NCBI RefSeq assembly: GCF_963675165.1
Contig: NC_087382.1
Span: 3,883,963-3,947,962, forward strand
DNA: 64,000 nt
Direction: 5' to 3'
Source: Halichondria panicea
Taxonomy: Eukaryota > Porifera > Demospongiae > Suberitida > Halichondriidae
Part shown: piece after piece, positions 6,120 to 45,620 of the stretch
How positions within the stretch are numbered: the first letter of the stretch is position 1
Layout of the letters: every line of letters starts with the position of its first letter
Notes under the pieces: model-generated
The model's input: the letters and a program-made list of their open reading frames with translations, nothing else
Databases searched by the model: none
What the model was told of the DNA's origin: nothing
Program-made: the position numbers and the translations under genes

Positions 6120-6833
6120 ATGAAGACAGCCATTGCTCTGATAGCACTGATCTCCCTCACCGGCAGTCTGGTGTGGGCCGCACCAAATCAGCAACAGCAA
6201 CAAGTACAGGACATTCAAGAAATCCTGGGAAATGCTCGAGACACAACAGAGCAAGACGAGGATGATGTAGACCTCCAGTCGCTACTGGCAGCTGCTCAAG
6301 ACGATGATGGCAATGATGACGATGTAAAAGAATTGCAGTCACTTATCGCCAGCGAACAAGATGAAGATGAAGATGAAGATATGTCAGCACTCAACTCCCT
6401 GATGGCTGCTGCACAAGATGACGACAATGGAGATGACGAGGATGAGAATATGAAAGCTCTGACATCGCTAAGTGCAGCTGCTGAAAACGATGAAGACGAC
6501 CAGCTATCTGAGACAGCTGCTATCACTCAAAGATCCCGAAAAAGGCCAAGGAGAAATAGAAAGCGAAGGAGTTATATAAAATACTATAGAGGGCGAAGGA
6601 GATATAGAGGACGAAACTTGGCCCGCTATTACCAGCGTTATTACAATCAGCTTTACAAGAGGTATTACAACAATTATTACGCTCGATATTACAAGCAACA
6701 TTACAACAGGCAGTATCGAGGAATTAAATCGTATGGTAATTACGGATTTAGAGTGATTAATCATGTGTACAAGTACATGAAGAGTCACTACCCCAAAGTG
6801 TATCGCAAGTACTTGTACTACAACAAGGGATAA
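6120..6833 (+). CDS. Family A secreted precursor, acidic pro-region and Tyr/Arg-rich tail (A1)
   Basis: An intronless frame of 237 aa. Residues 1-21 are a signal peptide (hydrophobic core IALIALISLTGSLVWA, cut near WAA|PN). Residues 24-140 are dominated by Asp/Glu, with repeated blocks LQSLLAAAQ, LQSLIASEQ, LNSLMAAAQ and LTSLSAAAE between acid runs. After TAAITQRSRKR the charge flips to Arg/Lys, then come YYQRYY/YYARYY-type repeats and a conserved end with KSYGNYGF, MKSHYP and a C-terminal NKG. The ATG was chosen from the TATA distance and identical starts at 9754 and 24061. Function unknown: the architecture fits an antimicrobial-type precursor, and a structural Tyr-rich protein is the alternative. 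Paralogues lie at 24061 and, as dead copies, at 11331 and 22600. Confidence 0.85.
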   Translation: MKTAIALIALISLTGSLVWAAPNQQQQQVQDIQEILGNARDTTEQDEDDVDLQSLLAAAQDDDGNDDDVKELQSLIASEQDEDEDEDMSALNSLMAAAQDDDNGDDEDENMKALTSLSAAAENDEDDQLSETAAITQRSRKRPRRNRKRRSYIKYYRGRRRYRGRNLARYYQRYYNQLYKRYYNNYYARYYKQHYNRQYRGIKSYGNYGFRVINHVYKYMKSHYPKVYRKYLYYNKG

Positions 6834-7634
6834 ACTTCATGCAGCAGCTGCAGATACAAACTTGAAGTAGCTTATGTATAGAGTCAGACTGAACAGAATT
6901 GATAGAGCACTGAAGTGCTAAACTTTCGTAGTTTCATGCCTCGTATAAAAATTTGAACAATTAAAATGTGAGTATGAAAAAATTGGCTGTACTATAATAA
7001 TTATATAGGGAGCGTGCATGTGACACCGTATATATAATATAATTATAGCCTCGAATACTCCATAATCTCAGGTACAAATCTATTTTAATGGCTCACAAGA
7101 CAAAACAAATAATTTCTTCTATGCATGCACACAAGCCCTCCGCCTATAAGATGTAATTTGATAGCATAATTTAATGTCAGAATGGAATACAACATAAATA
7201 AGGATGCATTGGTATCGATTTGTGAATGAGTATACCATAATTATAATGGTCAGTATAACTATACCTGTGAATTCCAGAGCAAAAGCAGATGTGCCTTTAC
7301 ATTTCATACAACATGCATTGGTAGGAAACTCATGCATGCATGTATACATGCATGCACTATAATTATAAGTTTACCCCTATAAAGTATATAATTATAACAA
7401 TCAGCCTATAATAGAAAATTTAAGCTTCGATTGTAAAAGGTACACCTCGACATTATATTCAATATCAAAGGTGGTTCACATAATTATAGGCAAAAAAGCA
7501 CAGCGTATATCACATGGACGCAGCTAGATGGAGGTTGTTTTCTGAACCATATATATAATGAAGAGCACTATTGAAATCAGAGTTCGTTATTTCATGCATG
7601 CTGCAGCACTTAATGAAAGCACCGCAGGTGCTGA
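6834..7634. other. Gene-free AT-rich stretch with an orphan family A promoter relic
   Basis: No coding signal found. At 7262-7375 the order AAAAGCAGATG, TTTACATTTCA, GGAAACTCATG, TGCATGCACTATAA repeats the flank of the family A genes (compare 5985-6070), with the TATA box decayed and no coding sequence behind it. It looks like a promoter that lost its gene. Confidence 0.45.
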
Positions 7635-8191
7635 TGCCTCGGTGGAGATGCAAAGCTACATAACATAAAGCTGCTACTAATAGCTTTTATGCACATGATA
7701 AAAACAATTTAATTTTGCTGCATGCAAAAACTCAGAGAGTGGGTAATGATCCACCATGATTGTTGTTAAAACGATCTATGCCAAAAGTTCAAGTCTAAAA
7801 TTAATGGCTGCCATCAGCAGAGCCTTGCAGCTCTCTTCTCACTCTTGCAGCTACCAATAGCTAGCGTTCTAGTGCAGAGCTAACTACTAAGTAGAGTAGC
7901 AACACTCGGTAAACAAGTTTGGCTACGTGCTCTTCTAAAAAGGCTGCAATGGCATTCCAAGTAAGCAAAACTAGGCATAACTCGAGAATGAAGCATTATT
8001 TTGCAAATCCACGAATTAAAATCCAAGTAAACATGACTAGAAGCCTATAGAAACTCTTACTTGCACTTGATTCATCCTTGAGCAGCTGTAGCAGTCTACA
8101 CACACAGACAGACAGACACACACACAGACACACAGACACACAGACACAGACACACTACCGTATACCTCGCTTGCGCATGCGCACCGAGGCA
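7635..8191. mobile_element. MITE-like element with TGCCTCGGTG termini
   Basis: The left end TGCCTCGGTG (7635-7644) is the exact inverse of CACCGAGGCA at 8182-8191. The interior has no coding capacity and carries a CACAGA microsatellite (about 8098-8155). A second copy at about 21611-22250 shares blocks such as GAGCCTTGCAGCTCTCTTCTC and GCGCATGCGCAC but has lost its right terminus. No clear target duplication. A short open frame across the microsatellite on the minus strand is not considered real. Confidence 0.6.
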
Positions 8192-8460
8192 TAATTTGAA
8201 CAGTAAACAGAACCACATGCATTGAACCATGCAATGCTGCAATTATCTCATAGCTGACACAACCTGACATTTCACACAATAACTCTTGTATTACAATTAT
8301 CTCATAGCTGACACATGACATTTCACGCAATAACTCTTGTATTACAGGATTGAATGATTCCCGTAAAAACTGGAATAGACAGCAAGTTTATACATGATTC
8401 AGCATACTGCATAACATAACTTAGGGCATGCACGCATGTTGCATTTTATTTTCTACTCTA

Positions 8461-8850
8461 CAAGAGAATATCTGGCAGGTTTGGGAGAAAGTCTGGCAGG
8501 TTCGGGAGAAGGTCTGGAAGAAGGATTGTGAGAAGGAGATACTGGCCTGGACAACAGTTTTAAATTGGCTGAGCTTAAATCAACTGCATGAAAAACTGAG
8601 TCGTAGAAAAACTGTGTCTGTTCAGTGTAGCACTGAATAGTTAGCTATATAATAAAATGAATCACTAATCAGAGTGAATCATATTAAATTAGTGTTGTTT
8701 AACATGTTATGGAGATCAAAAGATTGGTATATACATGCAAAATAAGCGTAATTAATGGTGCATGAGCATTATTTAGTAGCTATGGCTACGTCTTATTTGC
8801 ATGCATATAGGTTTGTACTTGTAGATATAATAATAGGCACTATACTCTAT
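8461..8850 (+). pseudogene. 3' fragment of the Arg-rich G-tail gene (copy of 10340-10735)
   Basis: The stretch TGGGAGAAAGTCTGGCAGG through AAGGATTGTGAGAAGGAGAT matches the 3' coding end of the gene at 9754. The match continues past that gene's stop into its 3' flank (ACTGAGTCGTAGAAAAACTG; TTTGTACTTGTAGATATAAT). There is no start, signal peptide or pro-region: only the tail and 3' flank were copied. A short frame running through it is incidental. Confidence 0.65.
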
Positions 8851-8883
8851 AAATTGTAGCCAGTACAAGGTTGAGCTGTATGC

Positions 8884-9753: not shown

Positions 9754-10461
9754 ATGAAGACAGCCATTGCTCTGATAGCATTGATCTCTCTCACCGGCAT
9801 TCTGGTGTGGGCCGCACCAAATCAGCAACAAGTACAGGACATTCAAGAAATTCTGGGAAATGCTCATGATGTAACAAAGCATGACGAGGATGAAGTTGAC
9901 AAAGAGGATGCTGAAATGGAAACTTTCATTCAAGATCTGATGTCTGCCCACAAACAAGATGGGGCACAAGTCGAGGACTTCCTCCATAAACTCATGAATG
10001 AAGAGGAGGAAACAGCTTCCGAACAAAAAAGCAATGATGATGATGATGACGACGATGTTGTAGACAACCAGAGCAGCGATCTCGACGAAGTTCAAAGTGA
10101 CAATGACGACGAATTGGAGGCTGCGGTCCAAGAGCTTATACAAGATGACGATAGATCTAACGATGATAGTGATTTGGATGTTGCTGCTCTTCAAGAGCTG
10201 ATCGCCAAGTCACAAGACCCAGATGTTAAAGCTCAATTTTGGGGGGCTATTGCTCGTCTCGGGACGCGGCTAATCAGCAGGGTTGGGAGACGGTTTGGGA
10301 GAAAGTTCAGGAGAACGTCTAACAAGTTTGGGAGAAGGTCCAGGAGGTCCAGGAGAAGGCTTAGCAGGTCCAGGAGAAGGCCTAGCACGTCCAGGAGAAG
10401 GTATGGAAGAAGGATTGTGAGAAGGAGATACTGGCCTGGACAACAAATCAACCAGTGTTAA
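9754..10461 (+). CDS. A-headed secreted precursor with divergent Arg-rich tail (A-head/G-tail)
   Basis: 235 aa, intronless. The first 40 or so residues (signal peptide IALIALISLTGILVWAAPN, then QQVQDIQEILGNAHD) almost equal those of the gene at 6120. Beyond that it differs: a long Asp/Glu pro-region with LQELIAKSQDP before the junction KAQFWGAIARL, then a helix-like RLISRVGRRFGRKFRR and a run of RRS/RRR repeats. The C-terminus (GQQINQC) has one Cys and lacks the terminal Gly of the other families, so the end may have been altered by a frame change. I start at the ATG matching family A; an in-frame ATG 61 codons upstream would precede the TATA box. A fragment of its 3' part lies at 8461-8850. 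Confidence 0.8.
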   Translation: MKTAIALIALISLTGILVWAAPNQQQVQDIQEILGNAHDVTKHDEDEVDKEDAEMETFIQDLMSAHKQDGAQVEDFLHKLMNEEEETASEQKSNDDDDDDDVVDNQSSDLDEVQSDNDDELEAAVQELIQDDDRSNDDSDLDVAALQELIAKSQDPDVKAQFWGAIARLGTRLISRVGRRFGRKFRRTSNKFGRRSRRSRRRLSRSRRRPSTSRRRYGRRIVRRRYWPGQQINQC

Positions 10462-11867: not shown

Positions 11868-12260
11868 TCAGCGGCCCCAAACGCGAACAGCTTTCTTCAC
11901 ACCACCCCATACTTTACGGCCGATTCGGTGTCTCTTCCACCAGCCCCATTGAGCATGAGCAGTCGTACCAGGAGTTTGGATGTCTGCCATAAACTTCATT
12001 AACTGAGCTTTCGTATTTTCGTCATCTCCTTCGTCCTGTTCCATATTAGCCAGCATCGACTGTAGGCTTGCCAAGTCAGCCGGCGAATCATCTTCATCTT
12101 GAATGTTTCGCATCAGAGCTTTTTTGAGAGCAGCTTGAACTTCTTCACTTTCCATAGCTTGCTCGATTACTTTCTGCATCTCAACTTCGTTTCCTCTAGG
12201 AGCTGCATACATGTAGCAGACCAGTGTAGCAAGGATTGTCACGGTGAACACAGCCTTCAT
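11868..12260 (-). CDS. Family C secreted precursor with Trp/Arg-rich mature peptide (C1)
   Basis: 130 aa, intronless. Residues 1-20 form a signal peptide (VFTVTILATLVCYMYA|APRG). The pro-region is acidic and helical (VIEQAMESEEVQAALKKAL; LASLQSMLANMEQDEGDD). The junction TPGTTAHAQ leads into a basic, Trp-rich peptide of about 27 residues beginning QWGWWKRHRIGRKVWGGVKK and ending VWGR. The C-terminal Gly-Arg could serve as an amidation signal after Arg removal. The frame stays open 17 codons upstream, but the Met before AVFTVT matches its paralogues. A small cationic antimicrobial-type peptide is the best guess; no activity can be read from sequence. Confidence 0.85.
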   Translation of the reverse strand: MKAVFTVTILATLVCYMYAAPRGNEVEMQKVIEQAMESEEVQAALKKALMRNIQDEDDSPADLASLQSMLANMEQDEGDDENTKAQLMKFMADIQTPGTTAHAQWGWWKRHRIGRKVWGGVKKAVRVWGR

Positions 12261-13224: not shown

Positions 13225-13623
13225 ATGAATACTGTGTTCACCGTGACAATCCTCGCTATACTGGTCTGCTACATGTATGCAGCTCCTAGAGCGGGAAACG
13301 AAAATGAAATGCAGAAAGTAATTGAGCAAGCTATGGAGAGTGAAGAAGTTCAAGCTGCTCTCAAACAAGCACTGATGCAGGGAAGCATTCAAGATGAAGA
13401 TGATTCGCCGGCTGACTTGGCAAGCCTACAGTCGATGCTGGCTAATATGGAACAGAATGAGGGAGATGACGAAAATACGAAAGCTCAGTTAATAAAGTTA
13501 ATGGCGGACATCCAAACTCCTGGTACGACTGCTCATGCTCAATGGAAGTGGTGGAAGAAACACCGAATCGGCCACAAAATCTGGCGTGGTGTGAAGAAAA
13601 CTGTTAGTTGGATTGGCCGTTGA
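13225..13623 (+). CDS. Family C secreted precursor (C2)
   Basis: 132 aa, intronless. Signal peptide NTVFTVTILAILVCYMYA, acidic pro-region (VIEQAMESEEVQAALKQAL, QDEDDSPADLASLQSMLANM), junction TPGTTAHAQ and basic tail QWKWWKKHRIGHKIWRGVKK ending WIGR. Compared with C1 the pro-region is nearly unchanged, while several tail positions differ (GWWKR to KWWKK, RK to HK, GG to RG). The open frame extends 51 codons upstream, but the start is set by paralogy and by the promoter lying inside that extension. Confidence 0.85.
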   Translation: MNTVFTVTILAILVCYMYAAPRAGNENEMQKVIEQAMESEEVQAALKQALMQGSIQDEDDSPADLASLQSMLANMEQNEGDDENTKAQLIKLMADIQTPGTTAHAQWKWWKKHRIGHKIWRGVKKTVSWIGR

Positions 13624-17803: not shown

Positions 17804-18190
17804 TCAACGGCCCCAAATCCTCTTTACACCACGCCAGACTTTGTGGCCGATTCGGTGTTTCTTCCACCAGCGCCATTGAGCATGAGCAGTCGTACCAGGA
17901 GTTTGGATGTTCGCCATAAACTTCATTAACTGAGCTTTCGTATTTTCGTCATCTCCTCCGTTCTGTTCCATATTAGCCAGCATCGACTGTAGGCTTGCCA
18001 AGTCAGCTGGAGAATCATCTTCATCTTGAATGCTTCCCTGCATTAGAGCTTGTTTGAGAGCAGCTTGAACTTCTTCACTCTCCATAGCTTGCTCGATTAC
18101 TTTCTGCATCTCGACTTCATTTCCTCTAGGAGCTGCATACATGTAGCAGACCAGTGTAGCGAGGATTGTCACAGTGAACACAGCCTTCAT
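17804..18190 (-). CDS. Family C secreted precursor (C3)
   Basis: 128 aa, intronless. Signal peptide and pro-region are nearly identical to C1, with MQGSIQDEDDSPADLASL and NMEQNGGDDENTKAQLMKFM. The junction TPGTTAHAQ leads into QWRWWKKHRIGHKVWRGVKR, ending IWGR. The tail is two residues shorter than C1. The usual AATAAA in its 3' flank has decayed to AAAAAA (near 17690), so poly(A) usage is uncertain. Start chosen at the Met before KAVFTVT, though the frame is open 34 codons further. Confidence 0.83.
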   Translation of the reverse strand: MKAVFTVTILATLVCYMYAAPRGNEVEMQKVIEQAMESEEVQAALKQALMQGSIQDEDDSPADLASLQSMLANMEQNGGDDENTKAQLMKFMANIQTPGTTAHAQWRWWKKHRIGHKVWRGVKRIWGR

Positions 18191-18885: not shown

Positions 18886-20376
18886 ATGAAGCTCACACTG
18901 CTATTGCTATTGGTGGGTATTTCCAACTTATGTGTCAGTGCACAATCTTCTTCTGCGGAGAGTGGCATTTCGAAAAGCTTTGATCAGCAACGAAATGAGT
19001 TAGAGCCAACGGATCAAGATGAAGAGGAGCTTGCACAAGCTTTATCTTCTCTCTTGACACAAACACAGGAATACGGAGATGCTCAAGGAATTGGTGATGA
19101 GGATGTGGAAACTTTGAATGCTCTCGCTGAAATGCAGGATGAAGAATTGGAGCAAGCCTTGACTAACGCAATTGCTGATGATGATGGTGCATTCATCACT
19201 GCACTTAAGGATGTACAAAAAAAACATGGCGATGAAAATGCAAGCATACAAGATTCTGACACACCAAGCAAAGAATGGCATTCTCTGATTAACGTGATTG
19301 TAAAGACTGAAGATGAGGATGGCCGCCTAAGTAAGCAAGGACCTCACCAACTTGAAAGAGAAAGAAGAGAAGCAACAGAAGGTGGTTTCACTAACAAACT
19401 TACCGAAACTCAAAATGAAAATGATGATACAAGCATGAATGCTGAGCTTGAGAAAATAGAGCAAGACAAAGTGAGGGACAAGGAAGCTTTGCAAGTGTTA
19501 GCAAATGCTCTTGCAGAAGTACAGCAAGTAGACCAAACAGAGCAAGAACTTGAAAATGAACTAGCTTCTATTCAGTACAGCAACGAGGATGATGGAAATA
19601 TTCAAGATGGTAAACTGATTAATGAAGCTATGATGGAAAAACTCTCTGCAAAAGATGATAATACTCAAAGTCAAGACCACGATGAAGATATACAAGCAGT
19701 TTCGAATGAGCACATGCCCTCCAAGCAGGCAGCCGCAATTCAAAGAGATGAAAACGCAGCCAAGGTAGTCTCAAAATTATATTCAACGGCTAAGGTACAA
19801 TGGAGACGTCGTAGACGATGGCGACGCCCAACAAGAATCATTCGAAGATCTATCCGCAGAATTGTAAGGGTCGTTCGAAAACCAATTCGCAAAATTTCAA
19901 GGGTAATTCGAAAAGTTCGCCGCATTCGTAAACTAAAAAGAATAATTCGAAAAGCTATTAAAAAGATTCAACCTAAACGCCTAATCCGCCGGATATCAAA
20001 AGTTATCCGAAAGAGTCACCCCAAGAAAGTTTTTGGAACATTATCAAAATTGCTTAAAATGTTGAAACCAAAAACAAGCTTCTTGAAAAAGCTCATTGCA
20101 AAAGCAGGAAAATTGCTCAAGAAGGCTGTTAAGTATCCCAAGAAACTCGGCTCAAAGGCACTTCAGTACGTATTGGGCTTACTTGGTAAAGGAAAAGAAG
20201 TTACTAGCATCAAAAACAGTTCAGGAGGAAGTACAGGTGATAAAAATGGGAAATCGGGAACAAGGAGTAAAGGAAGAGGATCTTGGCTGACAAAGCTCAC
20301 TGAAAATGATGGCAACAGTTTCTTGAAGAAAATGATTGTCGTTATCAAAAAGTATGGGCGTAAACGAAAAGGATGA
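18886..20376 (+). CDS. Long secreted precursor with Arg/Lys/Ile-rich basic domain (family F)
   Basis: 496 aa, intronless, the longest of the group. Residues 1-20 are a signal peptide (LTLLLLLVGISNLCVSA|Q). Residues 25-300 are acidic with repeated LAEMQDEE, LANALAEVQQV and ELASIQ motifs. At residue 304 the junction STAKVQW switches to a basic half of about 190 residues: WRRRRRWRRP, then repeated I-I-R/I-R-K units (RKPIRKISRVIRKVRRIRK), LLKMLKPK helices, a Ser/Gly/Lys linker and a final RKRKG. CACCATGAAG fits an animal start context, and TATATAAG lies at about 18840. Internal basic pairs could yield several peptides. No homologue recognised. Confidence 0.8.
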   Translation: MKLTLLLLLVGISNLCVSAQSSSAESGISKSFDQQRNELEPTDQDEEELAQALSSLLTQTQEYGDAQGIGDEDVETLNALAEMQDEELEQALTNAIADDDGAFITALKDVQKKHGDENASIQDSDTPSKEWHSLINVIVKTEDEDGRLSKQGPHQLERERREATEGGFTNKLTETQNENDDTSMNAELEKIEQDKVRDKEALQVLANALAEVQQVDQTEQELENELASIQYSNEDDGNIQDGKLINEAMMEKLSAKDDNTQSQDHDEDIQAVSNEHMPSKQAAAIQRDENAAKVVSKLYSTAKVQWRRRRRWRRPTRIIRRSIRRIVRVVRKPIRKISRVIRKVRRIRKLKRIIRKAIKKIQPKRLIRRISKVIRKSHPKKVFGTLSKLLKMLKPKTSFLKKLIAKAGKLLKKAVKYPKKLGSKALQYVLGLLGKGKEVTSIKNSSGGSTGDKNGKSGTRSKGRGSWLTKLTENDGNSFLKKMIVVIKKYGRKRKG

Positions 20377-20773: not shown

Positions 20774-21169
20774 ATGAATACTGTGTTCACCGTGACAATC
20801 CTCGCTACATTGGTCTGCTACATGTATGCAGCTCCTAGAGGAAACGAAGTCAAGATACAGAAAGTAATCGAGCAAGCTATGGAGAGTGAGGAAATTCAAG
20901 CTGCTCTCAAACAAGCTCTGATGCAGGGAAGCATTCAAGATGAAGATGATTCGCCGGCTGACTTGGCAAGCCTACAGTCGATGCTGGCTAATATGGAACA
21001 AGATGAAGGAGATGACGAAAATACGAAAGCTCAGTTAATGAAGTTTATGGCAGACATCCAAACTCCTGGTACGACTGCTCATGCTCAATGGGGCTGGTGG
21101 AAGAGACACCGAATTGGCCGCAAAGTCTGGGGTGGTGTGAAGAAAGCTGTTCGCATTTGGGGCCGCTGA
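20774..21169 (+). CDS. Family C secreted precursor (C4)
   Basis: 131 aa, intronless. Signal peptide NTVFTVTILATLVCYMYA, acidic pro-region with LASLQSMLANMEQDEGDD, junction TPGTTAHAQ, tail QWGWWKRHRIGRKVWGGVKK ending IWGR. The tail equals C1 (11868) but for one residue, while the first codons resemble C2 (13225), so this copy combines features of both. AATAAA follows at 21276. Confidence 0.86.
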   Translation: MNTVFTVTILATLVCYMYAAPRGNEVKIQKVIEQAMESEEIQAALKQALMQGSIQDEDDSPADLASLQSMLANMEQDEGDDENTKAQLMKFMADIQTPGTTAHAQWGWWKRHRIGRKVWGGVKKAVRIWGR

Positions 21170-22250: not shown

Positions 22251-22599
22251 CAAAGCAAAACACGGCGGTTCCAGGCCGCCCTCGAATCAAAGATGGTAAA
22301 CAATCTAATGTGCAGTAACTCCGTGGTTAATGAAGATAAAACATAAGCAGCATTCTCTAGAATTATTATATATATCAATCTACATTGTGTATCAATATGT
22401 TCAGTCTAATAGTATGCACAAATCTACTCAACTTTATGTGCAGACTGCAGCTAACATGTACATGCACTTGAAAGCTTATCGCTTGAATTTGATATCACTG
22501 TACTTCTTGTACATGTAGGGGCAGTTCCTATTCCACGTAGCGGTGGACAAAATTCAGCATCTATAGTGAAAGTTACCATATGCTTTTACTCCTTTATAC

Positions 22600-22868
22600 C
22601 AACTTGCTGTAATAGTTCTAAGTAATAGTGCCGCTTGTAATATTCCTCATAATAGCGCTTGTAATAATTTATAGCAATGACACAACCAACTGCTTTTGAA
22701 GCGTATTGGCCTTTTAATAATGGATGACACATGTTGACTGTCTTGTATAGACTAGTAGTTTTTATTGTTTTGAGCTAGTGACATCAGAGGTTTTGGTGCG
22801 GCCCACACTATAGGCTGCTGGTGGTGAGGGAGAGATCAATGCTACTAGAGTAATGGCTGTCTTATGAG
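22600..22868 (-). pseudogene. Dead family A gene, internally deleted
   Basis: On the minus strand AAGACAGCCATTAC.CT...GTGTGGGCCGCACCAAA matches the family A signal peptide, but ATG has become a non-start (CATAAGACA). Nearly all of the pro-region is gone. Remnants of Tyr repeats (ATTACAAGCG.TATTA) remain at 22620-22680. Confidence 0.7.
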
Positions 22869-24060: not shown

Positions 24061-24798
24061 ATGAAGACAGCCATTGCTCTAATAGCACTGATCTCCCTCA
24101 CCGGCAGCCTGGTGTGGGCCGCACCAAATCAGCAACAGCAACAAGTACAGAACATTGAAGAAATCTTGGGAAAGAAACATCAAAATGCAGTCAAGCAAAA
24201 CGAGGATGATGTAGACCTCCAGTCGCTACTGGCAGCTGCTCAAGACGACGACGACAACGATTATGATGCAAAAAAATTTCAATCATTTATCGCTAGCGTA
24301 CAAGATGAAGATGAAGATATGCCAGCACTCAACTCCCTGATGGCTGCTGCACAAGATGACGACAATGGAGATGATGAAGATATGTCAGCACTCAACTCTC
24401 TAATGGCTGCTACACAAGATGACGACAATGGAGATGATGAGGATGAGAATATGAAAGCTCTGACATCGCTAAGTGCAGCTGCTGAAAACGAGGAAGACAA
24501 CCAGCTATCTGAGACAGCTGCTAATACTCAAAGATCCCGAAGAAGGCGAAGGAGATGTAGAAGGCGAAATTGGGCTCGCTATTACCAACGTTATTACCAA
24601 CGTTATTACATTCAGCTTTACAAGAGGCATTACAACAATTATTACGCTCGATATTACAAGCGACATTACAACAGGCAGTATCAAGGAATTAAATCATATG
24701 GTAATTCCGGATTTAGAATGCTGAAGCATGTGTACCACTACATGAAGAGTCACTACCCCAACATGTATCGCAACTACCTGTACTACAACAGGGGATAA
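24061..24798 (+). CDS. Family A secreted precursor (A2)
   Basis: 245 aa, intronless. Same plan as the gene at 6120. Signal peptide IALIALISLTGSLVWA, acidic region with LQSLLAAAQ, LNSLMAAAQ, LNSLMAATQ and LTSLSAAAE, one more repeat than A1. Then SRRRRRRCRRRNWARYYQRYY, further Tyr-pair repeats, and the conserved end KSYGNSGF, MKSHYPNMY and NRG. One Cys lies in the Arg run. No damage seen. Confidence 0.85.
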   Translation: MKTAIALIALISLTGSLVWAAPNQQQQQVQNIEEILGKKHQNAVKQNEDDVDLQSLLAAAQDDDDNDYDAKKFQSFIASVQDEDEDMPALNSLMAAAQDDDNGDDEDMSALNSLMAATQDDDNGDDEDENMKALTSLSAAAENEEDNQLSETAANTQRSRRRRRRCRRRNWARYYQRYYQRYYIQLYKRHYNNYYARYYKRHYNRQYQGIKSYGNSGFRMLKHVYHYMKSHYPNMYRNYLYYNRG

Positions 24799-25486: not shown

Positions 25487-26362
25487 ATGAAGGCCGCCAT
25501 TGCCCTAGTAGCACTGGTCTCCCTCACAGGCAGCCTGGTGTGGGCCGCACCAAACGAAGAATCAATAGACATACAAAGGTTCAATGATGCTCTTGAGAAT
25601 GCTCTCAGTCAAGCCCCACAAACACCACCTGATGGCACCAAGATTGATCAAGATGCGGCCAAACAAGATGATGGTGATGATATAGACTTGCAGTCACTAA
25701 TGGCAGCTGCTCAAGGTGGTGATGGTGAGGATGATGGAAATATGAAAGCTCTAAGGTCACTACTAGCAGCTGCGCAAGACGGTAGTGATGGTGATGATGA
25801 AAATATGAAAGCTCTGAGGTCACTAATGGCAGCTGAGCAAGAAGAACCGGATAATAAACTGGTTGTTAATGAACAAGATGACGACGAAGATATGAAAGCA
25901 TTCAATTCGCTAATGGCTGCTGCACAAGATGAAGGTGATAATGGAAATATGAAAGCTTTGAGATCTTTAATGGCAGCTGAGCAAGGAGATGACGATGATG
26001 AAAATGTGCAGGCTCTGAAGTCTCAAATTGCAGCTACTCAAGATGCGGGCGGTGACACACAAGAGGAGCTGCCAGCTAAATCTCAGTGGTATCGTTGGTC
26101 CTACTACAAACGGTACTATGCTCGGTACTACAGTAGATATTATGCTCGTTACTACAGTCGATACTACGCTGGGTATTACAGCAGGTATTACAGTCGATAT
26201 TACGCTCGCTATTATCATCGATACTACAACAAAAAGTTTAAAGGAGCAAAATCGTACGGTAATTACGGATTTAGTGTGATTCATCATGTGTACAGGTACA
26301 TGAAGAGTCACTACCCCAACATGTATCGCAAGTACTTGCACTATCGTAGAATTCGGGGATGA
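25487..26362 (+). CDS. Family B secreted precursor with (RYYx)n repeats (B1)
   Basis: 291 aa, intronless. Signal peptide IALVALVSLTGSLVWA, then IDIQRFNDALENALSQ, which is unique to B. Five or six acidic repeats follow, carrying MKALRSLMAAEQ or MKAFNSLMAAAQ. The junction is LPAKSQWYRW, then ten or so four-residue repeats of the type R-Y-Y-A/S. The last 40 residues hold KSYGNYGF, HVYRYMKSHYP and YRRIRG. The Tyr pairs alternate with Arg and small residues; no Cys. Such a segment could bind anionic surfaces or be cross-linked through Tyr, but its job is unknown. E and D genes follow on the same strand. Confidence 0.86.
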   Translation: MKAAIALVALVSLTGSLVWAAPNEESIDIQRFNDALENALSQAPQTPPDGTKIDQDAAKQDDGDDIDLQSLMAAAQGGDGEDDGNMKALRSLLAAAQDGSDGDDENMKALRSLMAAEQEEPDNKLVVNEQDDDEDMKAFNSLMAAAQDEGDNGNMKALRSLMAAEQGDDDDENVQALKSQIAATQDAGGDTQEELPAKSQWYRWSYYKRYYARYYSRYYARYYSRYYAGYYSRYYSRYYARYYHRYYNKKFKGAKSYGNYGFSVIHHVYRYMKSHYPNMYRKYLHYRRIRG

Positions 26363-26762: not shown

Positions 26763-27203
26763 ATGAAGCTGGTTCTCATACTCACGTTGTTTGCCCTCAC
26801 AGCCAGTGTGGCTTACACAGCCCCACAAGAGGAAGCGAACGATGAAGAAGATGGTGATGCTGAAGTGGAAGCCATGCTTGAGAAACTACTGGGACAAGAA
26901 ATGGCCGAAGAACAAGATCAGAATGGAGACGATGACAGTGACGATGACAACGACGGTCAAATTCAGGCACTCCTCTCTCAAATGCAAGACGGTGACGATG
27001 AAGAAAAAGCAGTGGCTGTTTTACAAGAGCTGTTTGCCGACAAACAAGACCCTACAACTGCCAAGATGCAATGGAGGAGGTGGAGGAGGAGGTTCAGAGT
27101 GAGAAGAATTTTTAGGAAGGTTGGCAGGTTCGTAAAGAAACACGCTCCAAAGCTTTTAAATGCTGGAAAGAAGATACTGCTTGGAGGATGCGGCAAAAAA
27201 TGA
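26763..27203 (+). CDS. Secreted precursor with helix-like basic peptide (family E)
   Basis: 146 aa, intronless. Signal peptide LVLILTLFALTASVAYT|APQ, then an Asp/Glu-rich region with IQALLSQMQDGDDEE and VLQELFADKQDP. The junction TTAKMQW leads into a basic peptide of about 44 residues (WRRWRRRFRVRRIFRKVGR ... KHAPKLLNAGKKILLGGCGKK in two parts). Helical periodicity, one Cys and a terminal Gly-Lys-Lys, a classical amidation signal, give it the most antimicrobial-like tail here. A TATA-like CAATAAAAGC lies about 70 bases upstream. Only one intact copy; traces of its 3' flank remain near 44200. Confidence 0.84.
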   Translation: MKLVLILTLFALTASVAYTAPQEEANDEEDGDAEVEAMLEKLLGQEMAEEQDQNGDDDSDDDNDGQIQALLSQMQDGDDEEKAVAVLQELFADKQDPTTAKMQWRRWRRRFRVRRIFRKVGRFVKKHAPKLLNAGKKILLGGCGKK

Positions 27204-27791: not shown

Positions 27792-28229
27792 ATGAAGACA
27801 TTTCTCCTCCTAGCAACCTTGGCCTGTATCATTGGCCTGGGGCTATCAGCTCCCAGCACTGCTCAGAATGAAATTGAAATACAAAATCTCCGTTCAATGC
27901 TCGAGAAAGCCACCAAGCAAGAGGACGATATTGACATTCAGAATATCGACGATGTCGAGGGAGGTGTGGAGAACCTAGATTCTATCCTAGCTGAGATGCA
28001 AGATTTCCCGGATGATGAACAGATGAACGCTCAGCTGCACGATATGGCAGCTAACAAGCAAGCACCAGCCACAGCACAATTACGAGTCACCTATAAGAGG
28101 CTGTACAGGAGGGCTCGTACTTTTGGAAACTTAGAATACCGAATGCTGAATGCTATCACCAACTATGTCAAGAGGTACCAGGGAACAATGAATTCTTATT
28201 ACCGCTACCTCAGCAAATACAGCGGATAG
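27792..28229 (+). CDS. Family D secreted precursor (D1)
   Basis: 145 aa, intronless. Signal peptide TFLLLATLACIIGLGLSA|PST, acidic pro-region (NLRSMLEKATKQ, NLDSILAEMQDFPDDEQ), junction KQAPATAQ, then a basic tail LRVTYKRLYRRARTFGNLEY and an end NYVKRYQ..YYRYLSKYSG. The tail's last 37 residues align with those of families A and B. Residues 1-95 are identical to D2 (45180), while the start of the tail differs strongly. The ATG follows a TTG that is also in frame; ATG is preferred. Confidence 0.85.
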   Translation: MKTFLLLATLACIIGLGLSAPSTAQNEIEIQNLRSMLEKATKQEDDIDIQNIDDVEGGVENLDSILAEMQDFPDDEQMNAQLHDMAANKQAPATAQLRVTYKRLYRRARTFGNLEYRMLNAITNYVKRYQGTMNSYYRYLSKYSG

Positions 28230-31842: not shown

Positions 31843-32077
31843 ATAAAGACATTTCTCCTCCTAGCAACCTTTGCCTGCATCATTGGCCTGGGACTATCAG
31901 CTCCCAGCACTGCTCAGAATGAAATTGAAATACAAAACCTTCGTTCAATGCTCGAGAAAGTCACCAAGCAAGAGGACGATATTGACATTCAGAATATCGA
32001 CAATGTCGAGGGAGGTGTGGAGAATCTAGATTCTATCCTAGCTGAGATGCAAGAAATCCCGGATGATAAACATATTA
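31843..32077 (+). pseudogene. Dead family D gene lacking start codon and cationic tail
   Basis: The signal and pro-region match D1 closely, but the start ATG is ATA inside an AAAAT repeat. Just after the codons for PDD the sequence jumps into the D1 3' flank (ATTATCCAGTAACATAG), deleting the whole basic tail. Confidence 0.8.
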
Positions 32078-35679: not shown

Positions 35680-36507
35680 ATGAAGGCCGCCATTGCCCTA
35701 GTAGCACTGGTGTACCTCACAAGCAGCCTGGTGTGGGCTGCACCAAATGAAGAATCAATAGACATACAAAGGTTCAACGATGCTCTTGAGAATGCTCTCA
35801 GTCAAGAATCCTCACAAATACCACCCGATGGCACCAAGATCGATAATCAAGATGCGGTCGAACAAAATGACGATGATGATATAGACTTGCAGTCGCTAAT
35901 GGCAGCTGCTCAAGGTGATGATAATAATGATGATGAAAATATGAAAGCTCTGAGGTCGCTAATGGCGGCTGAGCAAAACGAAGAATCGGAGAATAAACTG
36001 GTTGCTAACAAACAAGAAGATGATGAAGATATGAAAGCTTTCAATTCGCTAATGGCTGCTGCACAAGATGGCGCTGATGACGATGAAAATGTACGTGCTC
36101 TAAAGTCGGTATTTGCAGCTACTCAAGAAGAGGATAGTGAAACACAGCTGGTTGGAAATAGTGAGGAAACTGCTAAAACTGCCTGGTGGCGTCGCAAACG
36201 TCACAGGCGTAGGAGGTCGAAGTCAGCTGCTTACTATAAACGATACTACAGTCGTTACTATAGTAACTATTACAGCAAGTATTACAGTCGTTACTACAGT
36301 AACTATTACAGCAAGTATTACAAGCGATACTATGCTAGGTACTACAGCAGGTATTACTCTCGCTACTACAATCGATACTACAGCAAAAAGTTGCAAGGAG
36401 CAAAATCGTACGGTAATTACGAATTTGGAGTGTTTAATCATGTGTACAGGTACATGAAGAGTCACTACCCCAGCATGTATCGCAAGTACTTGCACTACCG
36501 GGGATGA
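35680..36507 (+). CDS. Family B secreted precursor (B2)
   Basis: 275 aa, intronless. Signal peptide IALVALVYLTSSLVWA and IDIQRFNDALENALSQ as in B1. Acidic repeats carry LQSLMAAAQ, MKALRSLMAAEQ, MKAFNSLMAAAQ and VRALKSVFAATQ. The junction is ETAKTAWWRRKRHRRRR, then about thirteen Tyr-pair repeats (SRYYSNYYSKYY), ending in LQGAKSYGNYEFGVF, MKSHYP and HYRG. Three in-frame ATGs precede or include the start; the one matching B1 is used. Fragments of its tail recur at 40641 and 42421. Confidence 0.86.
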   Translation: MKAAIALVALVYLTSSLVWAAPNEESIDIQRFNDALENALSQESSQIPPDGTKIDNQDAVEQNDDDDIDLQSLMAAAQGDDNNDDENMKALRSLMAAEQNEESENKLVANKQEDDEDMKAFNSLMAAAQDGADDDENVRALKSVFAATQEEDSETQLVGNSEETAKTAWWRRKRHRRRRSKSAAYYKRYYSRYYSNYYSKYYSRYYSNYYSKYYKRYYARYYSRYYSRYYNRYYSKKLQGAKSYGNYEFGVFNHVYRYMKSHYPSMYRKYLHYRG

Positions 36508-37671: not shown

Positions 37672-38568
37672 CTAAGTCATTCTGTCACAGCTTTTCCTTC
37701 ATCTCAACGAAAGAGATGTTTAGAGCTGCTTTCATTTCATACTATCACATAGTATTAGAGTTTCCGTAAAACTGGACAAGACCACAACTAGCCCACCACC
37801 ACCCACTAGAATAAAGCTGTGCACAGTTACCAGTGCCATCGTATCTATCATTATCCCTGTGTTTAGTAGTGAACGTTTGAGGTCCACTACCACCATGATT
37901 GATATTCCTTGTAAGAGCATCAGGAGCATGTGTAACAGGAGACCATACAGCTTCCCCAATGTGGAGGGTGTAGTTTGTCTCCGGTCCATCGATCGTGAAC
38001 AAGCCGTAGGTCCAATGAAACTTGGTCCCGTTAGTAGCTGTCATATCGACCTCATTTCAACTTCTTTTTGTGTTAGACAACGCATCTCTTCTAAGCCGTA
38101 CCAACATTCCGCAAATCTGTTCTCATAATCTTTCCAGGTACGATCAAAATCAATTCGAGGAAAAACAGATAAATCTCTTCTAAAAGCAACCATCTAACCA
38201 CCATTGTGTGACTTCATATCACAACGAGCCAATCGGGAGTGACTGGATGTTTGGAATGGATCTATAGAAGCATCGCAGCTGCTTTGAACTTGGTACATGT
38301 CGGGGGGATGATAGTAGTCATGGTACACCTTTGAAAGCACTGTTCCCTATATATAATCATATCAGTACAATTATGACATTCAGCTACAACATAACAAATG
38401 CACATTCTGGAACTTACTGCACAGCAGTCATAGAATTTGGTGTCTCCACATTCTCTTCCGAAGGAGGCAGTTTCCTGAAGGAGATCGTGATGTCTTGCTT
38501 CACATCTTGTATTGGTGTGGAAACCTTGTGCCCCTAAAAGCACACTCAAGATTAGAGGTGCCTTTCAT
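37672..38568 (-). pseudogene. Dead fibrinogen-domain gene (copy of 29794-30734)
   Basis: Same two-exon plan and orientation. Damage read directly: a deletion of about 17 bases in the signal peptide (frameshift), TGG to TAG in the DGWMVV motif, a deletion near FGDLETEFW, and a 1-base loss at EMRID. The C-terminal half is still recognisable (YSSGWWWA-like codons). Confidence 0.85.
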
Positions 38569-40192: not shown

Positions 40193-41040
40193 TACGTGAT
40201 GTGCGTAGTCGAAAGTATCGTTAAAAATGCCAGGAATGTACGAGTTTTATCGCTTGTAGGTATTGTCTCATTAACCATAATTATTTTAGATACACTTAGA
40301 AATTAACTTGAGGGAACTATCAGATTAGCCCAAGCTGCTTCGAATGCCACCACTAGTCAGTAAAGCTCGTTTATGGCAGACATGTTAACTTCTGGTACAA
40401 CTGATGCATGAAACTGATACAAACTCAGTGAAATGTATATTGCAGCTGGGAACACGAGCAACAAAAGTTTTCGGAGCATTATCAAAATCGCGAAACTAAA
40501 AAAAGTTCTTGTATACACTGACTCAGCTTACTGCATAACAAACCATAAATGCACTTAATTGGCATGTTGAACTTTTTTCTACAAAATGATGGTTGTGGCT
40601 ATACTGTACAGTTATATTCTATAAAATAAATTATGACAACTATACAGTAGTTACTATAGTAACAAGTATTACAAGGGATATTACAGCAGTTGATATTATG
40701 CTGCATGGATACTACAAAAACATTACTCTCGCTATAAAAATTATACTACAATCGATACTACAGCAAAAAGTTGCAAGGAGCAAATCGTACGGTAATTACG
40801 AATTTGGAGTGTTTAATCATGTGTACAGGTACATGAAGAGTCACTATCCCAGCATGTATCACTGCATGGTACGTGATGTGCGTAGTCGAAAGTATCGTTA
40901 AAAATGCCAGGAATGTACGAGTTTTCTCGCTTGTAGGTATTGTCTCATTAACCATAATTATTTTAGATACACCTAGAAATTAACTTGAGGGAACTATCGG
41001 ATTAGCCCAAGCTGCTTCGAATGCCACCACTAGTCAGTAA
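40193..41040 (+). pseudogene. Mosaic of dead family C and family B pieces (first copy)
   Basis: A family C scrap (AAAGCTCGTTTATGGCAGACA, 40361-40409) is followed by inverted family C 3' flank (TTTTTTCTACAAAATGATG). Family B tail sequence runs from about 40641 to 40866: Tyr-pair codons, then GGTAATTACGAATTTGGAGTG and ATGAAGAGTCACTATCCC. Stops and indels break every frame. A 175-bp segment starting GTACGTGATGTGCGTAGTCG flanks it at both ends (40192, 40868). A second copy of the mosaic is at 42120-42843. Confidence 0.75.
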
Positions 41041-41251: not shown

Positions 41252-41677
41252 ATGAAGGCCGCTATTGCCCTAGTAGCACTGGTCTCCCTCACAGGCAGCC
41301 TGGTGTGGGCCGCACCTAATGAAAAATCAATAGACATACAAAGGTTCAACGATGCTCTTGAGAATGCCCTCAGTCAAGAAGCCCCACAAATGCCACCCGA
41401 CGGCACCAAGATCGATAATCAAGATGCGATCGAACAAGATGACGATGATGATATAGACTTGCAGTCACTACTGGCAGCTGCTCAAAGTGATGATGATGAT
41501 TATGAAGATATGAAAGCTCTGAGATTACTAATGATGGCAGCTGAGCAAAATAAAGAATCAGACCTGAAATCTGGTACGGCTGCTCATGCTCAATGGAAGT
41601 GGTGGAAGAAACACCGAATCGGCCACAAAGTCTGGCGTGGTGTGAAGAAAGCTGCTCGTCATTGGATTGGCCGTTGA
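41252..41677 (+). CDS. Chimeric secreted precursor: family B head, family C tail
   Basis: 141 aa, intronless. Residues 1-105 or so are family B (IALVALVSLTGSLVWA, IDIQRFNDALENALSQ, LQSLLAAAQ, MKALRLLMMAAEQ). After ESDLKSG the sequence becomes family C: TAAHAQWKWWKKHRIGHKVW, ending HWIGR. The 3' flank also starts as family C (GAACTGAGAAGTAGAGTAGACAGAAG, as after 13623). The frame is intact, the promoter is B-type and the junction lies just before the cleavage region, so the product should be processed as a C-type peptide under B-type control. Confidence 0.88.
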   Translation: MKAAIALVALVSLTGSLVWAAPNEKSIDIQRFNDALENALSQEAPQMPPDGTKIDNQDAIEQDDDDDIDLQSLLAAAQSDDDDYEDMKALRLLMMAAEQNKESDLKSGTAAHAQWKWWKKHRIGHKVWRGVKKAARHWIGR

Positions 41678-41714: not shown

Positions 41715-42430
41715 TAGATTTGTGCGTATATATAGCATATCGATATACGTCTTGTGTTTGTTATATAGAGATTAAATTTAGGATTCGTATAAGCAAGTCT
41801 CCAAACAATGTTCAGGGAACTACAATAATTGACTTTTATGATGAAAGTGAAAGTTATTAACTTGACTTGCTCTACAAACTTGTAATACTTATAGTCTTAG
41901 TACTATATACATTGCCTATTAAAGGGAGGCAGTGCATGCCTTTTCAGAGTCTTCTTGCACTGCATGGTACTACCGTTGCGCCCCTTTAGGTCATAAAACT
42001 AGGATCACAATACGCCCTAATAAATTATGCTGAGAATAATCTTATATAGGTATCTAAAGAAATAATTGGCGAACACTGCATGGCATCACTGCAAACACTG
42101 GGGCATGATCTAACTTGATATGGAAAACTTTAAGATGGAGGTGACGAAAATACGAAAGCTCGTTTATGGCAGACATGCTAACTTCTGGTACGACTGATGC
42201 ATGAAACTGATACATGAAATGTATATTGCAGCTGGGAACACGAGCAACAAAAGTTTTTGGAGTATTATCAAAATCGCGAAACTAAAAAAAGTTCTTGTAT
42301 ACACTGACTCAGCTTACTGCATAACAAACCATAAATGTACTTAATTGGCATGTTGAACTTTTTTCTACAAAATGATGATTGTGGCTATACTGTACAGTTA
42401 TATTCTATAAAATAAATTATGACAACTATA
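41715..42430. repeat. Second copy of the 17030-17760 block
   Basis: Collinear with the block at 17030, including the family C scrap (GTGACGAAAATACGAAAGCTC ... GGTACGACTG, 42136-42204). Confidence 0.6.
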
Positions 42431-42843
42431 CAGTAGTAGTTACTACAGTAACTATTACAGCAAGTATTACAAGGGATATTACAGCAGTTGATATTTTATG
42501 CTGCATGGATACTACAAAAATATTACTCTCGCTATAAAAATTATACTACAATCGATACTACAGCAAAAAGTTGCAAGGAGCAAAATCGTACGGTAATTAC
42601 GAATTTGGAGTGTTCAATCATGTGTACAGGTACATGAAGAGTCACTACCCCAGCATGTATCACTGCAAGGTACGTGATGTGCGTAGTCGAAAGTATCGTT
42701 AAAAATGCCAGGAATGTACGAGTTTTCTCGCTTGTAGGTATTGTCTCATTAACCATAATTATTTTAGATACACCTAGAAATTAACTTGAGGGAACTATCG
42801 GATTAGCCCAAGCTGCTTCGAATGCCACCACTAGTCAGTAAAC
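42421..42843 (+). pseudogene. Dead family B tail (second copy of the mosaic)
   Basis: Tyr-pair codons (AGTAACTATTACAGCAAGTA) and the KSYGNYEFGVF/MKSHYPSMY end are recognisable, ending at CACTGCAAGGTACGTGATG. Stops break the frame. It lacks a head. The closest live relative is B2 (35680). Confidence 0.75.
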
Positions 42844-43050: not shown

Positions 43051-43914
43051 ATGAAGGCCGCTATTGCCCTAGTAGCGCTGGTCTCCCTCACAGGCAGCCT
43101 GGTGTGGGCCGCACCAAACGAAGAATCAATAGACATACAAAGGTTCAACGATGCCCTTGAGAATGCCCTCAGTCAAGACGACACCAACATTGATAATCAA
43201 GATGCGGTTGAACAAGATGACGATGATGATATAGACTTGCAGTCGCTAATGACAGCTGCTCAAAGTGATGATGATGATGATGAAAATATGAAAGCTCTGA
43301 GATCGCTAATGGCAGCTGAGCAAGATGAAAAATTGGAAAATAAACTAAAATCTAACGAACAAGATGACGACGAAGATATGAAAGCTTTCAATTCACTAAT
43401 GGCTGCTGCACAAGATGGAAATGACGATGATGAAAATGTACGTGCTCTCAGTCTGAATTCACTATTTGCAGCTACTCAAGACGATGATGTTGACACACAG
43501 CTGGTTGGAAAAGATAAAGAAACTGCTAAAACTGCCTGGTGGCGTCGTAGACGTAGGCGGCGTCGTAGACGTAGGAGGTCGAATTCAGCTGCTTACTATA
43601 AACAATACTACAGTCGTTACTATAGTAACTACTACAGCAAGTATTACAAGCAATACTACGCTAGGTACTACAGCAAGTATTACAATCAACACTACGCTAG
43701 GTACTACAGCAAGTATTACAAGCAACACTACGCTAGGTACTACAGCAAGTATTACTCTCGCTACTACAAACGATACTACAGCAGAAAGTTTAAAGGAGCA
43801 AAATCGTACGGTAATTACGGATTTAGCGTGATTAATCATGTGTACAGCTACATGAAGAGTCACTACCCCAACATGTATCGCAAGTACTTGCACTACCGTA
43901 GAATTCAGGGATGA
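43051..43914 (+). CDS. Family B secreted precursor (B3)
   Basis: 287 aa, intronless. Signal peptide IALVALVSLTGSLVWA, IDIQRFNDALENALSQ, acidic repeats (LQSLMTAAQ, MKALRSLMAAEQ, MKAFNSLMAAAQ, LNSLFAATQ). The junction ETAKTAWWRR opens an Arg run, RRRRRRRRRRR, with tandem GTAGACGTAGGCGGCG codons. About sixteen Tyr-pair repeats include a 12-residue higher-order repeat (YARYYSKYYKQH). The end is KSYGNYGF, MKSHYPNMY, YRRIQG. Start as for B1; an ATG three codons upstream is in frame. Confidence 0.86.
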   Translation: MKAAIALVALVSLTGSLVWAAPNEESIDIQRFNDALENALSQDDTNIDNQDAVEQDDDDDIDLQSLMTAAQSDDDDDENMKALRSLMAAEQDEKLENKLKSNEQDDDEDMKAFNSLMAAAQDGNDDDENVRALSLNSLFAATQDDDVDTQLVGKDKETAKTAWWRRRRRRRRRRRRSNSAAYYKQYYSRYYSNYYSKYYKQYYARYYSKYYNQHYARYYSKYYKQHYARYYSKYYSRYYKRYYSRKFKGAKSYGNYGFSVINHVYSYMKSHYPNMYRKYLHYRRIQG

Positions 43915-45100
43915 GTGAACCGATGAAAAGAACTCAGAGACTTAATTGTGTATAGTGGAGATGATAGTTAGAACAAACATTTAGTGTGATTTAGTCGTAT
44001 ATGGAACAACATGTAGCAAAGTTGGTAGGTACATTTGAGTAGCTATAGCTGTATTAGTTGTATTCAAATAACTGGCTGTATGCAGTTTACGTCTACATCA
44101 TTGCAATGTACACGTGTGTGCATGGGGGTGGATTATTCTAACCACAAAGCATGCAAACATTCACTAACTATCAGTACCCCAAAATGAAACCAGATGTTAG
44201 ATTTAGTATTTTGTTTTTGAACTGATAGTGTAGTAATGTGCATAGTGTTTACTTTTAGTTGTGTTAATTAACTCATGTCCTGTGGTTAACTTTACTTCCT
44301 GTATTGTACTTTTCTGTTATTGTGGTTTCTGTTCGTTAGTAGGTTCTTTCTGTATAGTTGTTCTTTGTTCCCTTTGTGCCTAGCTATAGGGGCCCGCTCC
44401 AGGCGGCTCTTTGTGTATGGGAGCCTCTGCTCCACTGCCTTTTGTCTTGTACATACTTATACCTTTGTTCTTGTACATTTTATCAGTTGTTGAATACGAT
44501 TTCACTAAACTCAAATGTCTGCATGAACCTGCGACATAACAGATAGTTGCCATGGGCTTATTATTATTATGTGTCGTTATAGTTTAATAGCTAGTTTGAT
44601 TATAATATACATATGCAGTATATATAGCAGTCCCTACCATTTCACATGTGGCATGCAATGTAATTAAATTAAAGCCTCCTCACAACACACAAACAACACA
44701 CAAGTGTTGCCTACTATTTCTATATAGCTATGCAACTTATAACGTACTTATAACAAAAATGTAAGAGTATTAAAGGCATATTACTTGGACGGACTAGAAA
44801 CGAAACAATGCTATTGCGCAATTACTACAAGAAATGAAAACAATCACATGCTCACATAATGTGCATGGACATAAGGATATAAGGCAAGCACCAAAGAGTA
44901 TACAGTAACTGTACATGTATATTGTTGTAATGGCTTCCGAAAGAGTAGCAATGAGCAGATGGAATCGTTTATATGAATCTACGCAACCACCCCCAACAGC
45001 AGACACTTTTGTTTTGATAATCTACATGTTTACACCAATACAAACACTAATTCGATTAGTCTAGTGCCCACACACATACACTGTAGCATTGAGGGAAACT
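43915..45100. other. Gene-free interval between B3 and D2
   Basis: Early part shares ACCACAAAGCA with the 3' flank of B1. Near 44190-44240 a trace of the family E 3' flank (GTTAGATTTAGTATTTTG, GAACTGATAGTGTAG) suggests a lost E gene. From about 44880 it is collinear with the D1 upstream region (27480-27720). A 62-codon frame at 44358 has no supporting feature. Confidence 0.5.
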
Positions 45101-45179
45101 GGTCTATAAAAGAAATCTGTTGAGACTAGCTAACTATTATCCTCAACATTGAAGACCATCCAGTAACAACTTGAAGAAA
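45090..45179 (+). promoter_or_regulatory. Family D promoter
   Basis: GAGGGAAACTGGTCTATAAAAGAAATCTG, TATA at 45105-45110; near-identical to 27700-27735. Confidence 0.7.
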
Positions 45180-45620
45180 ATGAAGACATTTCTCCTCCTA
45201 GCAACTTTGGCCTGTATCATTGGCCTAGGGCTATCAGCTCCCAGCACTGCTCAGAATGAAATTGAAATACAAAACCTCCGTTCAATGCTCGAAAAAGCCA
45301 CCAAGCAAGAGGACGATATTGACATTCAGAATATCGACGATGTCGAGGGAGGTGTGGAGAACCTAGATTCTATCCTAGCTGAGATGCAAGATTTCCCGGA
45401 TGATGAACAGATGAACGCTCAGCTGCACGATATGGCAGCTAACAAGCAAGCACCAGCCACAGCAGAAAGGCGACGAATAAGATGGTACAGGCTGTACAAG
45501 AGGGCACGTAGTTTTGGAATGTTAGAATATCGAATGCTGAATGCTATCAACAACTATGTCAAGAGGTACCAGGGAACAATGAATTCTTATTATCGCTACC
45601 TCAGCAGATACAGCGGATAG
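45180..45620 (+). CDS. Family D secreted precursor (D2)
   Basis: 146 aa, intronless. Residues 1-95 are identical to D1 (27792), from signal peptide through KQAPATA. The tail then reads ERRRIRWYRLYKRARSFGML instead of the D1 version, one residue longer, and converges again on EYRMLNAI and YYRYLSRYSG. The 3' flank is also nearly the same as that of D1 (GATGGTGCATTGGAGTTGCC). Confidence 0.86.
   Translation: MKTFLLLATLACIIGLGLSAPSTAQNEIEIQNLRSMLEKATKQEDDIDIQNIDDVEGGVENLDSILAEMQDFPDDEQMNAQLHDMAANKQAPATAERRRIRWYRLYKRARSFGMLEYRMLNAINNYVKRYQGTMNSYYRYLSRYSG

Follow-up and report, generated by a model that had tools for sequence, protein, structure and literature searches.

The 64,000-nucleotide stretch of the genome of the sponge Halichondria panicea analyzed here (C6:3883963-3947962; hereafter, the window) carries a cluster of 15 open reading frames (ORFs) at positions 6120 to 45620. 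Each runs from ATG to stop without interruption, and all share a common layout of signal peptide, acidic pro-region, junction, and cationic tail. We consider it probable that these intronless genes belong to a sponge host-defense (antimicrobial-type) peptide superfamily, with peptides that would be held latent, released, amidated, and deployed against microbes. According to the proposed mechanism, each gene would yield a secreted precursor in which the acidic pro-region neutralizes the cationic tail. This precursor would be cleaved at a conserved [AV]xxQ site, directly before Trp or Gly-Trp, and its C-terminal basic residues would be trimmed to expose a Gly that the bifunctional amidating enzyme PAM could convert to an amide. 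The freed tail, a predicted amphipathic helix in most subfamilies, would then act on microbial membranes. Over time, leaders would be conserved and tails would diverge, with promoter-plus-head units recombined onto other tails without the aid of introns.

Amidation signal, junction, and charge balance

In the genome as a whole, 34 of 38 member genes end in a C-terminal Gly, Gly-basic, or Gly-basic-basic sequence, as amidated secretory peptides do. Among the non-member window ORFs of at least 60 amino acids, 4 of 68 have such an end; the corresponding binomial p value (1e-36 for 33/37 genes) is too strong, since the members are related. Ends of the Gly type occur in at least one member of 10 of the 12 subfamilies, with unlike residues preceding the end. 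They were also present in 26 of 43 non-identical relatives from a protein collection, several of the rest being visibly truncated, and were kept in 9 of the 11 relatives tabulated (exceptions, P0041 and P0051). A PAM gene, likewise expected alongside amidated secretory peptides, is found in the same genome on C7, where PHM exons, PAL repeats, and a transmembrane exon encode a bifunctional enzyme. PAM structures match this locus far better than dopamine beta-hydroxylase does: the joined PHM exon pieces matched 1opm with an E value of 5e-24 (dopamine beta-hydroxylase, 3.8e-5), and the PAL repeats matched 3fvz (E value, 1e-40). This evidence comes from one locus among 18 PF01082 matches in the genome. 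A PAM-like gene has been stated for sponges (PMC6529398; this and the other articles cited here are used for the parts of their text that were available). Separate from the PAM locus, an array of copper monooxygenase exons (PF01082/PF03712) lies at C1:14862957-14916655.

The junction between pro-region and tail reads [AV]xxQ, followed mostly by Gly-Trp or Trp, and contains no dibasic site. When junctions were placed by eye with this motif as a guide in 36 genes (without M1 and I2), Gln was present in 33, with mostly Ala, Leu, Val, or Thr at P2. A Trp occurs no more than two residues after the junction Gln in 29/36 genes, compared with a single Trp among 3337 pro-region residues, a contrast less affected by placement by eye. 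Judging from the motif, cleavage may occur either after the Gln or before it, the latter leaving a pyroglutamate.

Charge in the pro-region tracks charge in the tail (rho, -0.85; n = 36), a correlation to which length contributes; the value for 14 representatives was -0.76 (p = 0.0015). Precursors in this comparison range from 115 to 496 residues, and their net charge is near neutral. There is one tail per precursor, of 23 to 191 residues, and each of 35 tails has 0 or 1 Cys. In the set without E5 and I2, the best 18-residue helical moment exceeded that of shuffled sequences in 25 of 35 tails (p < 0.05, without multiple-test correction). AlphaFold2 modeled G1 with a mean predicted local distance difference test (pLDDT) score of 65.1, including a helix at residues 97 to 141 that scored 74 to 87 per block, the remainder being poor; a model of T1 built with Y/T relatives was unusable (mean pLDDT, 43.7).

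The K2 tail, searched against all Protein Data Bank (PDB) sequences, retrieved the myeloid antimicrobial peptide 1FRY (E value, 5.4e-5; 14/22 residues identical). The alignment includes an unbroken GVKKYGPT, of which KKYGPT is retained in the diverged relative P0043. A profile built from eight K-type tails matched 1FRY similarly (E value, 3.4e-5), and the reversed K2 tail, used as a control, had no PDB match. With the W1 precursor taken as a whole, no structure match was meaningful.

Gene inventory

The intact genes of the window are as follows:

Y1, 6120..6833, + strand: Tyr-pair/Arg tail precursor, 237 amino acids (aa), C terminus ...NKG; TATAWA at -56
R1, 9754..10461, + strand: chimera of Y1-like promoter and head with R2-like pro-region and Arg-run tail; lacks a C-terminal Gly
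W1, 11868..12260, - strand: Trp/Arg helix tail, C terminus ...VWGR
W2, 13225..13623, + strand: Trp/Lys helix tail, C terminus ...WIGR
W3, 17804..18190, - strand: Trp/Arg helix tail, C terminus ...IWGR
I1, 18886..20376, + strand: long Ile-Arg tail, 496 aa, C terminus ...RKG; related gene I2 lies elsewhere on C6
W4, 20774..21169, + strand: Trp/Arg helix tail, C terminus ...IWGR
Y2, 24061..24798, + strand: Tyr-pair/Arg tail precursor, C terminus ...NRG
Y3, 25487..26362, + strand: Tyr-pair/Arg tail precursor, C terminus ...IRG
G1, 26763..27203, + strand: amphipathic Arg/Lys tail, C terminus ...CGKK; nearest window member to the cluster A/B families
T1, 27792..28229, + strand: short tail, last ~40 residues in common with Y tails, C terminus ...YSG
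Y4, 35680..36507, + strand: Tyr-pair/Arg tail precursor, C terminus ...YRG; another in-frame ATG lies 3 codons upstream
WY, 41252..41677, + strand: chimera of Y5-like promoter and head with W2-like tail and 3' flank, C terminus ...WIGR
Y5, 43051..43914, + strand: Tyr-pair/Arg tail precursor, C terminus ...IQG
T2, 45180..45620, + strand: T1-like precursor, C terminus ...YSG

Masking of these genes revealed five relics of the same layout:

8456..8557, + strand: R-type tail, 45.8% to R1 (E value, 3e-7)
22500..22793, - strand: Y-type tail with stops, 33.7% to Y6 (E value, 4e-8)
31843..32076, + strand: T-type head, 88% to T1, with Ile instead of Met at the frame start
40637..40859, + strand: Y tail in two pieces, within a duplicated block upstream of WY
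42429..42660, + strand: Y tail in two pieces, within the copy of the same block upstream of Y5

A mechanical ORF filter requiring a hydrophobic start, an acidic middle, and a basic last 30 residues recovered the same 15 genes in the window and none besides. The original prediction had spoken of at least 14 intronless genes with several dead copies and a single plan bearing very different tails; the exact count is 15, with five relics, and the plan holds across all 15 genes. The Y tails consist of YYx[RKN] repeats with a spacing of 4, and they have an end of ~40 residues in common with T1 and T2. A 148-base unit repeated twice at 37037-37332, with letters resembling a T-type head by eye, is possibly a further relic.

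Other features of the window include a 247-base unit (3.2 copies at 100% identity, 34759-35548) directly upstream of Y4 and, on the minus strand inside the cluster, a fibrinogen-domain (FReD) gene at 29794-30734 with a truncated second copy at 37745-38044 (both Pfam PF00147). Fibrinogen-related proteins are often immune lectins. The cluster is preceded by CFAP65-like Ig-domain exons (472-1906) and followed by a minus-strand retroelement reverse transcriptase fragment (54190-55110; PF00078) and an exon of the JAB/MPN ubiquitin-protease type (61998-62312). On another contig, a tandem array of Peptidase_C1 genes, intronless and with long uninterrupted frames, lies at C8:493345-521186. Four Peptidase_C1 matches examined, of 68 listed, retain Cys, and silicatein was therefore rejected as a marker of a sponge.

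Distribution and relatives

Searches of the same genome with W1, Y5, G1, T1, and I1 as queries, together with reading of the retrieved stretches, brought the family to at least 38 members, a lower bound that covers only part of the genome. At least 23 lie outside the window, 22 of them on C6:

C6:4061911-4099406: 18 members
C6:4371635-4377852: three members
C6:4519324-4519983: I2, related to I1
C4: one member, E4

One member, M1 (C6:4079741-4080859), has the family signal peptide and head followed by an acidic region of 350 residues, lacks a basic tail, and is possibly a free acidic partner.

From the protein collection, 60 relatives were retrieved; the 43 that are non-identical to genes of this genome may come from other individuals or from other species. 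P0007, P0008, and P0012 are annotated at NCBI as "uncharacterized protein" of Halichondria panicea. One scan each of bacterial and archaeal genomes and of viral contigs with profile A1 gave pattern matches and no confirmed relative. These results call for a revision of the original prediction: its plan, its expansion by duplication, and its antimicrobial-type guess stand, the last made clearer by the tails of the sister clusters, but the claim of no recognized relatives does not, given the 60 relatives retrieved and the fact that most members of the family sit outside the window. The prediction did not include the C termini of Gly and Gly-basic type, the [AV]xxQ-Trp motif at the junction, the matching of pro-region and tail charges, the two chimeric genes, or the sister clusters. 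A literature search, with subscription literature largely outside its reach, found no publication in which the family is recognizably described. H. panicea has already been used for bacterial-challenge and proteomic work, and the available parts of those immunity and proteomics papers (PMC8242945, PMC12345144) contain no reference to the family.

Upstream regions and evolution of leaders and tails

Of 36 genes examined, 31 carry a TATAWA element between -41 and -90 relative to the ATG (exceptions, W1, W4, G1, WY, and Y5). In every other complete 50-base bin out to -690, it occurs in only 2 to 9 genes.

Ratios of nonsynonymous to synonymous substitution (dN/dS) in pro-region and tail, respectively, were 0.18/0.56 for W, 0.30/1.08 for K1-K5, 0.36/0.70 for K1-K9, 0.41/0.57 for E, 0.35/0.43 for D, 0.12/0.62 for T, 0.15/0.19 for C, 0.40/0.45 for Y1-Y2, 0.32/0.29 for Y3-Y5, and 0.46/0.47 for R. 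Judged by these ratios, pro-regions are under purifying constraint where substitutions suffice (W, K1-K5, and K1-K9), and the tails of W and K are less constrained than their pro-regions. Signal regions show no clear constraint (dN/dS, 0.91 in K1-K9 and 1.17 in E). At synonymous sites, the pro-region has diverged less than the tail in 8 of 10 sets (exceptions, K1-K5 and C), which suggests conversion among leaders. The first 35 residues are identical among K6, K7, and K8, which have unlike tails.

Two window genes are chimeras. WY is Y5-like from -786 to +321 (97 to 100% upstream) and then W2-like through the tail (90 to 93%) and the 3' flank; in R1, the Y1-like part spans -468 to +147 and the R2-like part +142 to +927. 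In the protein collection, the WY protein (P0052) occurs on three contigs, which makes an error of this assembly alone less likely. The block duplicated upstream of WY and Y5 contains the relic Y tail listed above. An apparent upstream identity between T1 and G1 was rejected, as it merely reflects their overlapping flanks.

In the relatives that have diverged most, similarity in the tail equals or exceeds that in the leader (tail/leader values of 72%/40% for P0053, 68/56 for P0033, 51/33 for P0057, 60/55 for P0043, 64/53 for P0044, and 55/48 for P0046), which argues that the tail types are old. In closer relatives, the tail is often less similar than the leader (e.g., P0018, P0024, and P0032).

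Alternative explanations

Several observations weigh against the preferred explanation. The C-terminal Gly is missing from R1, R2, D2, and M1 and the junction Gln from Y4, Y5, and T2; placement by eye biases the Gln and Ala/Val counts toward the motif. The helical moment is not significant in 10 of 35 tails (Y1-Y6, T2, D2, E2, and E4). Among the five single tails searched against the PDB, K9 matched 1FRY with an E value of 0.64, and K7, W1, and E1 had no antimicrobial match. Pro-region and tail dN/dS are alike in Y3-Y5 and R, and diversifying selection on the tails is not supported, with dN/dS not reliably >1. Across 36 upstream regions, kappaB-like sites numbered 0 versus 0.6 expected, a result that carries little weight. 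The Tyr-pair tails are the least certain part of the family and may have another job, such as agglutination, adhesion, or cross-linking.

These tails are also the chief argument for regarding the products as structural or matrix proteins, whose polycationic tails, and chiefly the Tyr-pair/Arg repeats among them, would bind silica, collagen, or mucus, with Tyr cross-linking possible and the acidic part conferring solubility until deposition. The YYx[RKN] repeats without significant helical moment fit such a role, and the species is siliceous. Sponge long-chain polyamines have moreover been linked to spicule formation, according to a title cited in PMC12029483. Nevertheless, a structural role leaves the amphipathic tails of other subfamilies, the 1FRY match, and the fast divergence of W and K tails unexplained, and we regard it as unlikely; apart from the unusual Tyr/Arg tails, nothing was found for or against skeleton formation. 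The same precursor plan and helices would equally serve cytolysins or toxins aimed at animals or other eukaryotes, such as predators, competitors, or foulers, with antimicrobial action secondary. The aculeines of Axinyssa aculeata, a sponge that one source assigns to Halichondriidae, disrupt membranes and carry an N-terminal residue derived from Trp (PMC13418204, PMC9655573). However, aculeines have three disulfides, compared with 0 or 1 Cys in the tails here, and no member scanned matched a Pfam toxin family; a toxin function thus seems improbable to us.

The amidation signal, the possible pyroglutamate start, and the PAM gene would also suit amidated, neuropeptide-like signaling peptides in a nerveless animal. 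Such a function is very improbable given a single, long, strongly cationic tail per precursor, the many near-duplicates with diverging tails, and a junction motif that is not dibasic. It is harder still to believe that the precursors are never cut and act as whole zwitterionic secreted proteins, although their net charge is near neutral, M1 exemplifies an acidic-only product, and low-confidence models show helices throughout. The Gly or Gly-basic end and the Gln-Trp boundary, kept across unlike tails and diverged relatives, are sensible only with processing.

Amidated host-defense peptides remain our preferred explanation. We tentatively entertain a bolder version, doubtful as it is, in which the family forms an arsenal of latent peptides built from modules that recombine. 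Promoter-plus-head cassettes, setting where and when a product is made, would be joined to different effector tails; tail repertoire and expression could then vary between individuals and help in choosing symbionts; and release at [AV]xxQ would leave a Trp, Gly-Trp, or pyroglutamate start, perhaps with a sponge-specific modification as in aculeines. Defense by secreted cationic peptides that carry a charge-neutralizing acidic leader is little described in sponges. If the host-defense interpretation is true, the 38 genes with their amidation signals would equip an animal that has neither nerves nor adaptive immunity with as large a set of peptides as a frog has. How the host controls its microbiome could be tested one peptide at a time, and the genes would illustrate both promoter-plus-head/tail joining without introns and clear convergence on a mammalian antimicrobial motif.

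Comparison with known systems

Scans of 10 of the 15 window precursors against Pfam and NCBIfam yielded no credible family. GET2 scored above its cutoff for G1 (27.8 bits versus 25.5) and was rejected as compositional, as the match covers residues 21 to 116, mostly the acidic stretch. When six tails were scanned against Pfam, Styelin was the sole match for K9, K7, C1, and E1 (13.6 to 19.1 bits; cutoff, 27), W1 had no match, and I1 had three unrelated weak matches. Styelins (tunicates, PF17562) resemble the tails here in being linear cationic helices with a Gly-Trp start, but the best score among six tails and two precursors, 19.1 bits for the E1 tail, falls below the cutoff. In styelin precursors, the acidic part is C-terminal to the peptide, unlike in this family. 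Styelins have been described as amidated (PMC10608444).

Known ribosomal sponge peptides (ASABF, barrettides, asteropsins, stryphnines, and aculeines) are likewise sponge encoded and secreted; however, the available accounts describe them as cysteine rich. The several disulfide-forming Cys of ASABF, knottins, and aculeines have no counterpart in tails with 0 or 1 Cys (n = 35). Stryphnine precursors similarly comprise signal, intermediate, and C-terminal peptide regions; in cited tests, neither stryphnines nor barrettides A/B were antibacterial. The N-terminal Trp residue of aculeine B is modified; in 29/36 genes here, the predicted start is a Trp or has one beside it. Two reviews name ASABF as the characterized ribosomal sponge antimicrobial peptide, with cyclic peptides, depsipeptides, and barrettides appearing beside it; neither names a linear helical sponge family in its available parts (PMC12466427, PMC10608444).

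Two further parallels come from vertebrates. Like cathelicidins, the family combines a conserved leader with a variable cationic tail, and the K2 tail resembles 1FRY, which we take to be sheep SMAP-29, a cathelicidin. Unlike them, it has an acidic low-complexity pro-region, is intronless, and comes from a sponge; no cathelin domain was matched at an E value of ≤1 in the 10 window precursors or in the K7 and L1 precursors. Because cathelicidin tails vary freely, a tail match is no criterion of membership, and from the sequences the K2-1FRY resemblance is best read as convergence. Frog-skin precursors of the dermaseptin type have a conserved signal and acidic pro-region, a hypervariable amidated tail, and one peptide per gene. 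The family shares with them the conserved leader, the hypervariable tail, and the single peptide per gene but differs in its [AV]xxQ-Trp rather than Lys-Arg junction, with Gln at P1 in place of a dibasic site, and in its intron-free coding part. The frog-skin signal/propeptide domain had no Pfam match in the same 12 precursors. Judged by its sequences, the family belongs to none of the families tested, yet it probably works as frog-skin and cathelicidin precursors do.

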